Below, one piece after another: positions 43,048 through 48,412 of a DNA stretch of 64,000 nt (its first letter is position 1; every line of letters begins with the position of its first letter). Origin of the DNA: Pseudanabaena yagii GIHE-NHR1 (GTDB lineage Bacteria; Cyanobacteriota; Cyanobacteriia; Pseudanabaenales; Pseudanabaenaceae); the NCBI RefSeq assembly GCF_012863495.1, contig NZ_JAAVJL010000001.1, positions 1,488,001-1,552,000 on the forward strand. Reading direction: 5' to 3'. Below the pieces are notes generated by a model. It did no database searches, had not been told where the DNA came from, and was given only the letters and a program-made list of their open reading frames with translations. A program made the position numbers and the translations under genes.

Positions 43048-43545
43048 TTAATTAATTATTTTTTCTAGCTGTTTTAGGCGATGGGCTTCACCCTCTGCTT
43101 CTTTAAGCAAATCATGCCAATCATTTGGAGGATGACCACTTTCGAGCATTTTCTTAAAAACTCGATAAGCATCTGTATTACTCTCATAGGCTCTTTTAGA
43201 ACCCTCGTCATTTACCCAAGCAAAAACGATGATTTTACTCTCTTGGTGATATCGAAAAAACAATCGGTACTGCTGGAAAAATTTCGCTCGAAACCAATGT
43301 TTATATTCGTTACCAAGCGTTGTACCTTGACGATACTCGCTACGGGTGGGATCTTGGGGAATCACCTCAAATGCTAATTTGGCGATCGCAGCTAGACGCT
43401 TTGTGGCATTTTTCTGTTTGTAATTATTGGGATATTTCTGACGTAATCCTTCAACTTGTTGTAGAAGTGTTTCCAACTGATCTAGAAAAAGAGAATGGGC
43501 AAATATGTTCCATCCATTGATTACTAAAGGCGGACTGGTAGACAA
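43048..43545 (-). CDS. YhaV-family toxin (type II toxin-antitoxin)
   Basis: The 165-residue protein has VINGWNIFAHSLFLDQLETL, then KRLAAIAKLAFEVIPQDPT, FRAKFFQQYRLFFRYHQESK and IIVFAWVNDEGSKRAYES. This matches YhaV, a RelE-superfamily ribosome-dependent RNase. It starts two bases after its antitoxin stops, the usual PrlF-YhaV order. Arg/His catalytic candidates are present in the FRAKFFQQYRLFFRYH region. Confidence 0.88.
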   Translation of the reverse strand: MSTSPPLVINGWNIFAHSLFLDQLETLLQQVEGLRQKYPNNYKQKNATKRLAAIAKLAFEVIPQDPTRSEYRQGTTLGNEYKHWFRAKFFQQYRLFFRYHQESKIIVFAWVNDEGSKRAYESNTDAYRVFKKMLESGHPPNDWHDLLKEAEGEAHRLKQLEKIIN

Positions 43546-43547
43546 AT

Positions 43548-43880
43548 TTATTCATCCTCTTCTCTTAGCGGCGCGTCTAGATCCAAATCAACGTCAGATA
43601 CCAAAGCCTGAACACGACTTACTAAATCTGTACTTAAAACTTGCACATGGTGAGGATTTTTTTCGATATCTTGAGCCAAAAAATTCAGAAATTGACCAAT
43701 GATGGGATCGCTCTCGGTTTGATCGGCACGCGAAATTACAACGCGACCATCTGGCTCAATCGTGTAGCAAATTTTATCCCGTTTGTTTAATCCCAGCACT
43801 TTACGAATCGGATCAGGAATTGTGGTCTGATAGCGATCGGTTAGGGTAGATTCTGAGCGTTGAGCTAGGGTGACAGCCAT
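43548..43880 (-). CDS. PrlF-type antitoxin (AbrB fold)
   Basis: The core LAQRSESTLTDRYQTTIPDP, then IRKVLGLNKRDKICYTIEPDG, is a SpoVT/AbrB swapped-hairpin domain of the PrlF (SohA) type. I prefer ATG 43880 (MAVTLAQRSES), as family proteins begin there; a frame to 43958 exists but adds no conserved residues. It represses its own promoter and neutralises YhaV. The acidic C-terminal tail (DVDLDLDAPLREEDE) would contact the toxin. Confidence 0.85.
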   Translation of the reverse strand: MAVTLAQRSESTLTDRYQTTIPDPIRKVLGLNKRDKICYTIEPDGRVVISRADQTESDPIIGQFLNFLAQDIEKNPHHVQVLSTDLVSRVQALVSDVDLDLDAPLREEDE

Positions 43881-43965
43881 AGCAAATTTTTTAATATGTC
43901 GATTAATATCATCTTTAAGGTAATGCAATTGCATTGTCTTGTCAATGGCATTACTCAATTGGCAG

Positions 43966-44008
43966 CCAAAAGATAAAGGCAGCGCTTCGCACTGCCTTTA
44001 TCTTTTGG
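43966..44008. terminator. perfect hairpin between lipid operon and PrlF gene
   Basis: CCAAAAGATAAAGGCAGCGC and its complement flank TTC. It is nine bases beyond the methyltransferase stop codon and ends the lipid operon. Confidence 0.75.
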
Positions 44009-44016
44009 GGTTGAAG

Positions 44017-44883
44017 CTATATCAACGGTTTCTTGGCGGTAACAACTCCAAAAATGCCATTGGGTTCCATTTGCACCTGAAAATTGTGAAAGCCAGCCTC
44101 TTCAGCCCATCGGCGAGTTAGTTCCCAAGATCGTACTCGCATCACCCAAGGCAGTCCCGTATGGGCAGGCAAGGTACGGGCAATCATTTCTAGTTGCGGA
44201 TGCTGCGGCTGAATTGTAAAAATCAAAGTACCCTCTGGATCGAGAAGTCGATAAAGCTGCTGAAAATGATGCTTGATCAGATCATCATTGGGCAAAATCT
44301 CATGCAAACCCGAAACAATCACCACATTTGGTCTAGGCATTACCCGATCTAGATCTACGTCATTGAAAGCGTCAGCCTGTTCGATTTGGGCGGTAACTCC
44401 AAATTGCAGCGCAAGCTGACGCGCCTTGGTGACATTCTCTAATTTGTAATCACGCAGGGTTGCCGCGATCGCATCAGATGTAAATTCCTGCAATACCTCC
44501 AGATCGTAGCGACCACCACCACAAGCAACATCCAACAAATGACAGGGAATATTTTGCTGCTGATAAGAGCGTAATACCTTGCGGAGAGTCGATTTCATTA
44601 ACTGCGATCGCGCTCTAATACCACACCATCCCCGCGAGTTGAGATAAAACCAATCAATCAGATTTCCTAATGGGGTAATCCCACTCGGTCTATTTTTGTA
44701 AACATACTCCAACATCACACCTGAGTCAAAACCATACTGAAAGCCAATCTGAATCCCTTGCGAGAGCTTTCCAATAGTTTTGAGAGAAAGGTTCATTAAT
44801 CCGTAGTACCACGCTTTAGGATTCCAGACTGGTAAAGGACGCAAGAGTTGTTCGTAAGTGAGGGATGATTTTTGTAGTAACAT
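44017..44883 (-). CDS. class I SAM-dependent methyltransferase, lipid-operon associated (YnbC C-domain type)
   Basis: The 288-residue protein has a helical N-terminal extension of about 115 residues, then a Rossmann methyltransferase: HLLDVACGGGRYDLEVLQEF (motif I), IEQADAFNDVDLDRVM and VVIVSGLHEILPND (motif IV), and LYRLLDPEGTLIFTIQPQHP. This resembles the Methyltransf_20 type, found as the C-terminal half of E. coli YnbC. The alpha/beta hydrolase half of YnbC is absent. It follows plsC by 42 bases and is the last gene of the operon. The substrate is probably a lipid headgroup, by inference. Confidence 0.75.
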   Translation of the reverse strand: MLLQKSSLTYEQLLRPLPVWNPKAWYYGLMNLSLKTIGKLSQGIQIGFQYGFDSGVMLEYVYKNRPSGITPLGNLIDWFYLNSRGWCGIRARSQLMKSTLRKVLRSYQQQNIPCHLLDVACGGGRYDLEVLQEFTSDAIAATLRDYKLENVTKARQLALQFGVTAQIEQADAFNDVDLDRVMPRPNVVIVSGLHEILPNDDLIKHHFQQLYRLLDPEGTLIFTIQPQHPQLEMIARTLPAHTGLPWVMRVRSWELTRRWAEEAGFHNFQVQMEPNGIFGVVTAKKPLI

Positions 44884-44925
44884 TTTGAATTCTCGAAGAT
44901 AAGTAAAAGTGGGTAAAGAATTGCT

Positions 44926-45579
44926 TCAAATTGAAATTAGCCTGTCGTCTGATAACTTCTGGATACGCTCTGTCAGTTGCTGGAGAAAGACTTGCTTCTG
45001 TCCATTCCAGTACAACGACTCACCGATGCAGATCCAGCATAGTAAGGGAATAGGAAGAAAGTCACCTTTAGGAAGTGATTTGCCAAGCCCATGTAGAAAA
45101 ATGGGAATAATCGGCACATCAGGATTTTGTTTAGCTAGATGAGCGATGCCACTTCTAAACTCACTAAGGCTTTCAGGTGCTCCTCTCGTGCCTTCGGGAT
45201 AGAGAATCAGGATCTGATTTTGAGCGATCGCCTCAGCACAGTTTTTAAAGAAGTTGCGATGATGACAACTATTTTCTCGGCAGTTACCTGCTTCCGTCGA
45301 GACAGGAATAATGTTGAGAATATGTCGAGCAAACCATGCTAAACATGGACTTTGTTGTAGGAAATACTGCTCGTTTGCCACGGGGCGGAGATTCTGCACC
45401 TTTGATAATGGGAATAGTGACAAGAGAACGAGGGTATCTAGATGACTATTGTGATTAGCGACTAGAATCGCGGCTCCTGATCTGGGTAATCTCTCCCGAT
45501 GCTGGATGCGTAATCCCAAAAGAATCAAGACGATGATTTTTGTGGTCAGAAAGAAAATAATCCTAAGAATTCGTTTCAT
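44926..45579 (-). CDS. 1-acyl-sn-glycerol-3-phosphate acyltransferase family (PlsC-like)
   Basis: The 217 residues have an N-terminal membrane helix (IIFFLTTKIIVLILLGL), then AAILVANHNSHLDTLVLLSLF with the HX4D motif, and LILYPEGTRGAPESLSEFRS with the EGTR motif. This is a complete LPLAT core. It transfers an acyl chain to a lysophospholipid at the membrane. It overlaps the CdsA-like gene by four bases. The operon context suggests a specialised lipid rather than bulk phosphatidic acid synthesis. Confidence 0.88.
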   Translation of the reverse strand: MKRILRIIFFLTTKIIVLILLGLRIQHRERLPRSGAAILVANHNSHLDTLVLLSLFPLSKVQNLRPVANEQYFLQQSPCLAWFARHILNIIPVSTEAGNCRENSCHHRNFFKNCAEAIAQNQILILYPEGTRGAPESLSEFRSGIAHLAKQNPDVPIIPIFLHGLGKSLPKGDFLPIPLLCWICIGESLYWNGQKQVFLQQLTERIQKLSDDRLISI

Positions 45580-46529
45580 AGTAATTGCCCGTGGTAGTAG
45601 AAATAAACGGTGAAGTGGAAGAATAAAGGAGCAGTGTAAGTAAGACTATCAATGCGATCCAAAATGCCACCATGACCGGGGATGAGAGTGCCACTGTCCT
45701 TAATGCCTAAATCTCGTTTGATCGCCGAGATATTGACATCACCGATAAATCCCGTCAGGCTAAGCAGTAGCCCTAAACAAGCAGAATGGAGTAAATCAAA
45801 GGGAGTCAGCCAAGGTGCTAAGGTGATCGCTAATCCCGTAGTTGTGAGAATGCCACCCAGCAAGCCTTCAACAGTTTTATTGGGACTGACTTTGGGAATA
45901 ATTTTGTGACGACCTAATAGTTTGCCGAAGATGTACTGAGCGATATCATTGATTTCCGTCAGCAGTAATAAATAAACTAATAAACCTGTCCCTCCTGCGA
46001 TCGGATTGCCGTTTAGTGGCAGCATGATTAGGTAGGAAAGATGGCTGATGGTGTAGACATTTAACATCAGTCCCCAATGGAGCGTACCGATCGCATTGAG
46101 AAATCCTTCAGTTTCTCCATTGAGCAACATTCGCATCGGTAAGAACAGGAACATATAGATGGGAATGAAGATCAGAAACATGCCATACCAGCCAATGTAA
46201 ATCCAGAAATATTGGAGTATGATCGCTAGATAAGCCCAAAGTAAAACTCGGCGATCGCTCAAACGAGTAGGAATAAGGGAGAGATATTCTCTGAGGGCAA
46301 TAAAACTGAGCACCATAAAAAAGACAATGGAAATGGGTTGCTTCAGTAATATGGCAAAACTGAAAATCATCACCATAATCCACCAAGATTTGATGCGGGC
46401 TTTCAGTTCGCTATAGTCATTTTCCTGATGACTGAATGCTAAGCCGAGGACTGTAAATGAGGCGATCGCGAGCAATCCAAAAATGCCTGCGAAGGTATAA
46501 AGTACTGGAGTTGCCAAGTTTATTTCCAT
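45576..46529 (-). CDS. phosphatidate cytidylyltransferase-like protein (CdsA/YnbB type)
   Basis: At 317 residues this has about eight membrane spans and the complete CDP-diglyceride synthase signature SAIKRDLGIKDSGTLIPGHG, then GILDRIDSLTY. It activates phosphatidic acid or a related lipid with CTP. It is longer and more hydrophobic at the N-terminus than housekeeping CdsA. It overlaps the downstream and upstream genes by 4 and 10 bases. YnbB of E. coli is a CdsA homologue in an operon of the same order. It is probably not the only cdsA in the genome, but that cannot be checked here. Confidence 0.88.
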   Translation of the reverse strand: MEINLATPVLYTFAGIFGLLAIASFTVLGLAFSHQENDYSELKARIKSWWIMVMIFSFAILLKQPISIVFFMVLSFIALREYLSLIPTRLSDRRVLLWAYLAIILQYFWIYIGWYGMFLIFIPIYMFLFLPMRMLLNGETEGFLNAIGTLHWGLMLNVYTISHLSYLIMLPLNGNPIAGGTGLLVYLLLLTEINDIAQYIFGKLLGRHKIIPKVSPNKTVEGLLGGILTTTGLAITLAPWLTPFDLLHSACLGLLLSLTGFIGDVNISAIKRDLGIKDSGTLIPGHGGILDRIDSLTYTAPLFFHFTVYFYYHGQLL

Positions 46530-47158
46530 GAATCCACCTCCTGAAGCATTCCTTGAACGCTATTGCCAATTGTCCAAAGCTGAAGAAAAATCACGCCACT
46601 CAAAAGGATGTTTAGCCATTGAGTAGGATCAATTCCCCAACCTAATATCAAGCCAATTAACCCAAAAACTAAGGCGCGATCGCTTTTGCCCATTGGTCCT
46701 TCGTAGTGACGTTTATGATCAATCTCATAGCCTAAGACTCCCACCATTTCAGTGATAATCGCTAAAATCACAATCCCGACAATCAAGGGAGCAGAAACGC
46801 CTGCAATTAGAGCAAAGGGTAAGTAAAGCAAAACATCGGACAAGACATCTCCCACCTCATTGAGAATGCATCCAAATTTAGTAGTCTTTTCATATTCACG
46901 GGCAAGCATTCCATCGATCGCATTGAGAGCCATGCGTACTAATAAGGCGATCGGCAGAAATAATAAAACTGATTGAGTAGTAGGCAAAAAAGGTATCGAC
47001 AGTTGTGTACTTTGCACAAGTGCTAGCCCTGTCAACCCCGACAACAAAATCGCCGAGATCGTCACTTGGTTGGGAGAAATTTGCCACGTTGCTAATTTTT
47101 GGACTAGCGGACGCAGTAGATTTTGAAATGCTGATTTGCATTGATAGATGGAAACCAT
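46520..47158 (-). CDS. CDP-alcohol phosphatidyltransferase-like protein (YnbA type) with altered Asp motif
   Basis: The 212-residue polytopic protein carries the CDP-alcohol phosphotransferase motif as NAIDGMLAREYEKTTKFG, then CILNEVGDVLSD. Two of the four Asp positions are Asn: the first (NxxDG in place of DxxDG) and the third (GxxxN in place of GxxxD). DG, AR and the last D are kept. It would transfer a phosphatidyl group from CDP-diacylglycerol to an alcohol. It is the first gene of the four-gene operon. Whether the Asn changes are typical of the YnbA clade or inactivating I cannot tell; no other damage is visible. Confidence 0.8.
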   Translation of the reverse strand: MVSIYQCKSAFQNLLRPLVQKLATWQISPNQVTISAILLSGLTGLALVQSTQLSIPFLPTTQSVLLFLPIALLVRMALNAIDGMLAREYEKTTKFGCILNEVGDVLSDVLLYLPFALIAGVSAPLIVGIVILAIITEMVGVLGYEIDHKRHYEGPMGKSDRALVFGLIGLILGWGIDPTQWLNILLSGVIFLQLWTIGNSVQGMLQEVDSWK

Positions 47159-47365: not shown

Positions 47366-48412
47366 ATGTCAGGACTACCAGCATTTCGTCCCGAAGCCCT
47401 TGAGCAATGGCTTCCCCGAACACTCCAAAACCATTATGTAGACTTATTGCTACGACGCATAGGAATGACAAGGCGCAGAGCCGATTGTTTTGTACGACTA
47501 GCGCTCTATTTATTTTTGAAAAATTGCCAATCTCGCAAGGAACTTCCAAAACCACCACTGACAGAGTTATCTTTTCCGCAGGGATGGGTGGAGTGCAGTT
47601 GCCTCGAAGCCGCAGATGTGTTTTATAGCGATCGCGATCGTGGGGGCGATCGCGCAGCGGGAATGATGCTGAATAAGTTAGTCGATTTAGGATTAATTCA
47701 AAAGCAATTTGACGGCAACTGCACTCAAGTGAAATTTCATGCAATGCCAGATTTACTGAAAAGTGATGCCAAGAATCTCCATATAAGCTTTGCGATCGAT
47801 GCCTTTGATCCTCGTAGTGATGCAATTCCGATCGCAAATTTGTTAGCGAATAATTACAACTGGCTCAATCGTAATAACGATGCAGTCACCTATCGCATTG
47901 CGAATATTCTGCGTGACTGGGCAAGTCAATACACAGCAGGCTTAAGGGTATTACGTCGCAGCGACAATCAGAATCCTGTTGGTTTTTATGCGTTCTATCC
48001 CACCAAACGCGAGTCAGAAGTTAAATTTTTTGAACCGCCTAGTCGAGGTCTGCATCTGAGTCAAGTTGCGGATGTCGATCCATTTCAAATGGCTTTGGCA
48101 GGAGATGAGACTTGTCGATCTCTTTTTGTGAGAAGTTGGGTGATTGATAGTGACTATCGACAAGCAGCCCAAATGGAACTTCTGCTAGATGCCCAACAAA
48201 CCATGAAGAAAATGCAGCAAGATTTCCCGAACCTGTGGGATATGTATACGTTAATTATTCATCCCAGTTATGCAGAACTAAGTCTAGCATTGGGATTTCA
48301 AAAGACTAATGCCGATCCCAAAATGCCTCTCTATTGGATGTATCAAGCCGTCGATCGATTCTTGAAACTTGATATGCAAAACTTAATGAGGGACGCGCAG
48401 TCCCTAAACTAA
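47366..48412 (+). CDS. uncharacterised cyanobacterial protein
   Basis: I do not recognise a named family. The 348 residues contain a helical N-terminal third (RRIGMTRRRADCFVRLALYL) and a winged-helix-like region (GGDRAAGMMLNKLVDLGLIQ). The C-terminal half with ILRDWASQYTAGLRVLRRSD, VGFYAFYPTK and LIIHPSYAELSLALGFQ has the strand and loop pattern of a GNAT-like fold. No signal peptide or membrane span is visible. A DNA-binding plus acetyltransferase-like layout is inference. It stands alone, followed by two hairpins. Confidence 0.7.
   Translation: MSGLPAFRPEALEQWLPRTLQNHYVDLLLRRIGMTRRRADCFVRLALYLFLKNCQSRKELPKPPLTELSFPQGWVECSCLEAADVFYSDRDRGGDRAAGMMLNKLVDLGLIQKQFDGNCTQVKFHAMPDLLKSDAKNLHISFAIDAFDPRSDAIPIANLLANNYNWLNRNNDAVTYRIANILRDWASQYTAGLRVLRRSDNQNPVGFYAFYPTKRESEVKFFEPPSRGLHLSQVADVDPFQMALAGDETCRSLFVRSWVIDSDYRQAAQMELLLDAQQTMKKMQQDFPNLWDMYTLIIHPSYAELSLALGFQKTNADPKMPLYWMYQAVDRFLKLDMQNLMRDAQSLN

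Follow-up and report, generated by a model that had tools for sequence, protein, structure and literature searches.

A Pseudanabaena operon related to E. coli ynb and Pseudomonas aeruginosa arc1 and its probable place in a second CDP-diacylglycerol branch

Relation to the ynb and arc1 clusters

In Pseudomonas aeruginosa, antagonism resistance cluster 1 (arc1) is under Gac/Rsm control and helps cells to survive type VI attack, and loss of this cluster, which contains PA2541, impairs defence (PMC8926400). Four arc1 genes resemble enzymes of phosphatidylglycerol synthesis, and the paper names no product; one arc1 gene helped against the phospholipase toxin Tle3, but removal of Tle3 from the attacker did not rescue arc1 mutants (PMC8926400). 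A transposon mutant of PA2537 showed altered Congo red colonies and lower survival in a mouse airway screen (PMC2246019). In E. coli, overproduction of YnbB raised MPIase but could not replace CdsA (PMC6362211), as is expected of a specialised CDP-diacylglycerol synthase, and disruption of ynbC was linked to polyphosphate accumulation in one background, a link that the Keio background did not reproduce (PMC2435150).

The operon described here has four genes on the minus strand of the window (the whole 64,000-nucleotide stretch of Pseudanabaena yagii GIHE-NHR1 DNA that was analysed). Its features, in window coordinates, are:

46520-47158, minus strand: CDP-alcohol phosphatidyltransferase of the YnbA/Arc1A family, 212 amino acids; PF01066 (CDP-OH_P_transf), 1.3e-8
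46835-46924, minus strand: altered transferase signature N79-x2-D-G-x2-A-R-x8-G-x3-N100-E-x2-D104-x3-D108, with asparagine at canonical D1 and D3
46559-46561, minus strand: Ser200 of the transferase, Arg in the 95 other homologues, aligned with Arg195 of M. tuberculosis PgsA1
45576-46529, minus strand: second CdsA (CDP-diacylglycerol synthase) of the YnbB/Arc1F family, 317 amino acids; PF01148 (CTP_transf_1), 9.3e-66
44926-45579, minus strand: PlsC-type acyltransferase, Arc1E-like, 217 amino acids; PF01553 (Acyltransferase), 1.8e-20
44017-44883, minus strand: stand-alone class I SAM methyltransferase, 288 amino acids; PF12147 (Methyltransf_20), 2.9e-79
43966-44008, unstranded: terminator-like hairpin, a perfect 17-bp inverted repeat found in the sequence, -32.4 kcal/mol
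47366-48412, plus strand: divergent gene of 348 amino acids with no Pfam family, neighbour of the operon in Pseudanabaena

The open reading frames called on the window overlap by 10 and 4 bp and leave a gap of 42 bp before the last, and together with Pfam they reproduce to the base the gene positions, overlaps, gap and four enzyme classes given in the preliminary description. All four Pfam assignments exceed their cut-offs, and the set goes far beyond chance; in NCBIfam none of the four proteins reaches an equivalog above cut-off. The CdsA carries a complete CDS signature (SAIKRDLGIKDSGTLIPGHGGILDRID), which fits S-x-[LIVMF]-K-R-x4-K-D...H-G-G-x2-D-R-x-D, the pattern that we take to be the CDS signature in PROSITE. 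The PlsC motifs NHxSxxD (as NHNSHLD) and PEGTR are likewise complete on reading the sequence, as is, by inspection, the SAM motif DVACGGGRY of the methyltransferase. Codon comparison with six Pseudanabaena relatives gave omega values of 0.05-0.24 for all four genes, indicating purifying selection. For the operon promoter, consensus matches were no more frequent than in shuffled sequence.

The hairpin is placed after the operon's last stop codon and before the next gene, and beyond it, directly downstream of the operon, lies a PrlF antitoxin / YhaV toxin pair (43048-43958, minus strand). On the other side, the 348-amino-acid gene adjoins the operon in six other loci (82-86%) and in the two nearest relatives (94%), and it keeps its place by the Pseudanabaena operon even where the block is plasmid-borne. 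It was rejected as a member of the cassette since other cyanobacteria have the gene without the cassette, and it probably lies outside the lipid pathway.

The likeness to ynbABC pointed out in the preliminary description proved to be real homology, at 44-45% for the transferase and 38% between the methyltransferase and the YnbC C-terminal domain; the Pseudanabaena operon has adjacent YnbA and YnbB homologues together with a PF12147 domain. Common to it and to E. coli K-12 ynbABCD are therefore ynbA, ynbB and the methyltransferase half of ynbC. However, K-12 lacks the plsC of the Pseudanabaena operon, YnbC is a hydrolase-methyltransferase fusion whereas the Pseudanabaena enzyme has no hydrolase domain, and the YnbD phosphatase has no counterpart beside the Pseudanabaena operon. 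The ynb clusters of an E. coli plasmid, Citrobacter and Leminorella do contain plsC (ynbA-ynbB-plsC-ynbC), so plsC is not an addition. The E. coli / Citrobacter plasmid cluster has the four positions and the order of the Pseudanabaena operon, although there ynbC encodes the hydrolase fusion and is followed by a YnbD-type phosphatase (by annotation in Citrobacter, by tblastn in E. coli).

The preliminary description overlooked both arc1, the source of a phenotype for the family, and the altered active-site motif. As a probe we took 21 bases from the PA2541 deletion primers given in appendix 3 of PMC8926400; among 398 Pseudomonadaceae genomes it matched one, exactly. Two more arc1 primers are exact in the same 15-kb stretch, while a further primer does not match and yet another fails in its longest form, so the matched genome is that of P. 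aeruginosa or a close sister. The matched gene is a YnbA homologue of 211 amino acids, followed in order by a hydrolase-methyltransferase, a PAP2/dual-specificity phosphatase, a 150-amino-acid protein, PlsC and CdsA. By gene content and primer sequence this cluster is arc1A-F (PA2541-PA2536), and of the same kind as the Pseudanabaena operon.

Homologues of arc1A (46-47%), arc1F (45%), arc1E (32%) and the C-terminal half of arc1B (37%) were recognised by tblastn, the first three standing together in the Pseudanabaena operon. The gene order nevertheless differs, and where arc1B is a hydrolase-methyltransferase fusion, Pseudanabaena has the methyltransferase alone (288 amino acids). Neither arc1C (PAP2 plus dual-specificity phosphatase) nor arc1D was found beside the operon; hydrolase, phosphatase and arc1D are called absent on the content of the cluster, and the host genome has many unrelated alpha/beta hydrolases. 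In addition, arc1 is Gac/Rsm-controlled with a defence phenotype in P. aeruginosa, whereas the Pseudanabaena operon is known from its sequence.

Host genome and distribution of the cassette

The host Pseudanabaena genome (5.57 Mb, 99.8% complete) contains a further cdsA at C1:899869 and a further pgsA at C1:2352959, and its housekeeping PgsA has the canonical aspartate motif. The preliminary description had taken the operon copies not to be the housekeeping ones and had proposed a search for second copies of cdsA and pgsA, whose absence would have pointed the other way; since both exist elsewhere, that view is upheld.

The full cassette occurs in 4 of 292 sampled genomes of the cyanobacterial phylum, with more distant or partial versions in one further family of the phylum, and the four genes keep an identical order in other Pseudanabaena and in two more cyanobacterial genera. 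Within Pseudanabaena, the transferase is present in 17 of 26 genomes, all 17 of which also encode the methyltransferase, and the other nine have neither. In Pseudanabaena sp. ABRG5-3 the four-gene block is carried on plasmid ABRG53d, beside nifT, nifZ, nifV, nifK and nifD. A virus-borne origin was rejected, as no relative was found among viral contigs.

A contig scan with the transferase alignment confirmed 578 relatives, of which the best 80 were kept. The core of transferase, CdsA and PlsC recurs in more than 10 phyla, usually without the methyltransferase: among the best 80 of the 578 loci, some of which end at contig ends, this trio alone was nearby in 48, and a PF12147 domain was present too in 23. 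In a quick CdsA tree built without an outgroup row, the 57 scored rows show at least 11 switches in the presence of the methyltransferase, and the CdsA copies from cyanobacteria form one supported group. The neighbourhood counts and the tree switches make the trio the core and the methyltransferase a module. Such a neighbourhood analysis had been recommended in the preliminary description, whose "added" acyltransferase it does not support, since most loci have the trio with plsC as their core and it is K-12 that lacks plsC. As for the specialised, perhaps methylated, phospholipid suggested there, the specialised part is likely, given the second cdsA and pgsA elsewhere in the genome, while the methylation of the lipid was not substantiated: no PF12147 gene was found anywhere in the genome for 37 of 40 trio-only genomes, and one of the other three matches is weak.

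Several variants were observed around the core. In 15 loci (L064, L073, L075, L096, L101 and ten others) the trio has a small membrane-protein family in its neighbourhood; one member weakly matches VTT (DedA-like), and the family could transport the lipid product. Two genomes of the phylum's f31 family, probably Gastranaerophilales, encode the transferase homologue as a fusion with a flavodoxin-like domain (L048 8223-9311, L049 7761-8849). The variant cluster of a Moraxella osloensis plasmid (L054) includes a patatin-like phospholipase and a short-chain dehydrogenase, and in it the transferase runs into hydrolase-like sequence, possibly through a frameshift.

Transferase active site and methyltransferase target

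Known CDP-alcohol transferases share the motif DxxDGxxAR(x8)GxxxDxxxD, whose four aspartates bind two metals, the last of them presumably acting as the base (PMC6506517, PMC8633023). The YnbA/Arc1A family reads NxxDG...GxxxN[ED]xxD instead. All 96 homologues have asparagine at both D1 and D3, D1 having been partly favoured by the search because one of the two scan patterns included the first asparagine, and D3 being in neither pattern; the E. coli, Vibrio, Bacteroides and Shinella homologues taken from tblastn or annotation agree on asparagine. In these 96 homologues D3 is followed directly by Glu or Asp, and D4 by an aspartate four residues further on; our alignment places this aspartate in M. 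tuberculosis PgsA1 as well, so it is not unique to the family. In phosphatidylserine synthase, the change equivalent to that at D3 (D62N) abolished activity, and extra Mg2+ brought no rescue (PMC8633023).

K158 and R161 are invariant; in the alignment they fall on R152-P-E-R155, the anion-site segment of M. tuberculosis PgsA1 (PMC6506517). Despite these two residues the acceptor cannot be named, since 90 of the 96 homologues have Val or Ile (Val in the Pseudanabaena copy) in place of the Arg/Lys after D4 that inositol-phosphate requires. At position 200 the two nearest Pseudanabaena copies have Arg, and the window copy alone has Ser. The AlphaFold model of the transferase (pLDDT 94) has the CDP-AP transmembrane fold and its best PDB folds are phosphatidylinositol phosphate (PIP) synthases (5d92, 6h53/6h59; TM-score 0.75 over the query), the enzymes to which it is nearest by both fold and sequence. 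These share D2, D4 and the basic anion-site residues with it, but have Asp at D1 and D3 and Arg after D4, where Pseudanabaena has Asn, Asn and Val.

The methyltransferase (AlphaFold pLDDT 92) corresponds to the C-terminal half of YnbC/Arc1B. Versions from outside cyanobacteria are, like YnbC, almost all fusions with an alpha/beta hydrolase; the cyanobacterial and Gastranaerophilales enzymes stand alone. The structure did not yield a specific methyl target, its best PDB fold (3ocj) being an uncharacterised protein and its weak sequence matches to FPP methyltransferases and cyclopropane synthase being generic class I ones. Because transferase and methyltransferase are co-inherited exactly, the trio's lipid is a plausible methyl target in Pseudanabaena; given that most trio-only genomes lack PF12147, however, the target need not be the trio's product.

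A probable second CDP-diacylglycerol branch and its alternatives

We consider it somewhat probable that the operon encodes a dedicated second CDP-diacylglycerol branch, parallel to the housekeeping one, that makes a minor special phospholipid. The PlsC enzyme would acylate lysophosphatidate or a lysophospholipid, the second CdsA would convert phosphatidate into the branch's own CDP-diacylglycerol, and the YnbA-type transferase would pass the phosphatidyl group to a presumed alcohol acceptor, giving a minor, probably anionic, phospholipid, which the methyltransferase might then methylate on a putative head-group or acyl-chain site. By analogy with arc1, the lipid may have a protective role in Pseudanabaena, helping membranes to withstand attack or envelope damage.

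The observed basis for the branch is homology, complete motifs (except transferase D1 and D3), co-inheritance in Pseudanabaena and purifying selection. We count in its favour the second cdsA and pgsA, the core in more than 10 phyla, the co-occurrence in 17 of 26 genomes, the likeness to PIP synthases, K158 and R161, the YnbB data, the homology to arc1 and the omega values. Against it stand the replacement of two of the four catalytic aspartates by asparagine, which makes the transferase chemistry uncertain, Ser200 in place of a near-invariant Arg, the Val or Ile after D4, the absence of phosphatase and hydrolase beside the operon, and the fact that we found no product of any family member in the open-licence literature.

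The operon could instead serve lysophospholipid salvage, recapturing lysolipids and phosphatidate from phospholipase damage and rebuilding an ordinary phosphatidylglycerol-like lipid with no new class, although we regard this as unlikely. Such a role would suit the membership of PlsC in the core, the LplT-PlsC-Aas fusion genes that adjoin the trio in some loci, the lysophospholipase-like hydrolase added in most methyltransferase-bearing proteobacterial versions and the help of one arc1 gene against Tle3. However, that hydrolase is missing in the Pseudanabaena operon, salvage needs neither the methyltransferase nor a divergent transferase, and arc1 mutants still suffered when the attacker lacked Tle3.

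Even more doubtful is that the transferase homologue no longer acts as a transferase but binds CDP-diacylglycerol or hydrolyses it, the operon then regulating CDP-diacylglycerol and phosphatidate pools. The invariant asparagines, by which two metal ligands are gone, and the D62N result speak for such a loss; but D2, D4, D108, E101, K158 and R161 vary hardly or not at all, which with the low omega suggests a retained active site, and a CdsA partner implies that CDP-diacylglycerol is consumed. That the operon is merely a housekeeping or backup cdsA and pgsA, for all that the enzyme classes are identical, is highly improbable and was rejected, canonical copies of both being present elsewhere in the host genome and most sampled cyanobacteria lacking the cassette.

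Returning to the dedicated second branch, a tentative possibility is that YnbA/Arc1A forms a mechanistically separate class of CDP-alcohol transferases, with asparagine for two metal-binding aspartates (their role perhaps taken by E101 and D108), making an undescribed phospholipid that in Pseudanabaena would be methylated by the stand-alone PF12147 enzyme. The comparison joins three bodies of work, on the orphan E. coli ynb operon, the P. aeruginosa arc1 defence cluster and the cassette of more than 10 phyla, for which we found no earlier connection in open-licence papers. It reduces the question of the arc1/ynb product to four small proteins without hydrolase and phosphatase, and the invariant D-to-N changes challenge the superfamily rule that all four aspartates are needed.
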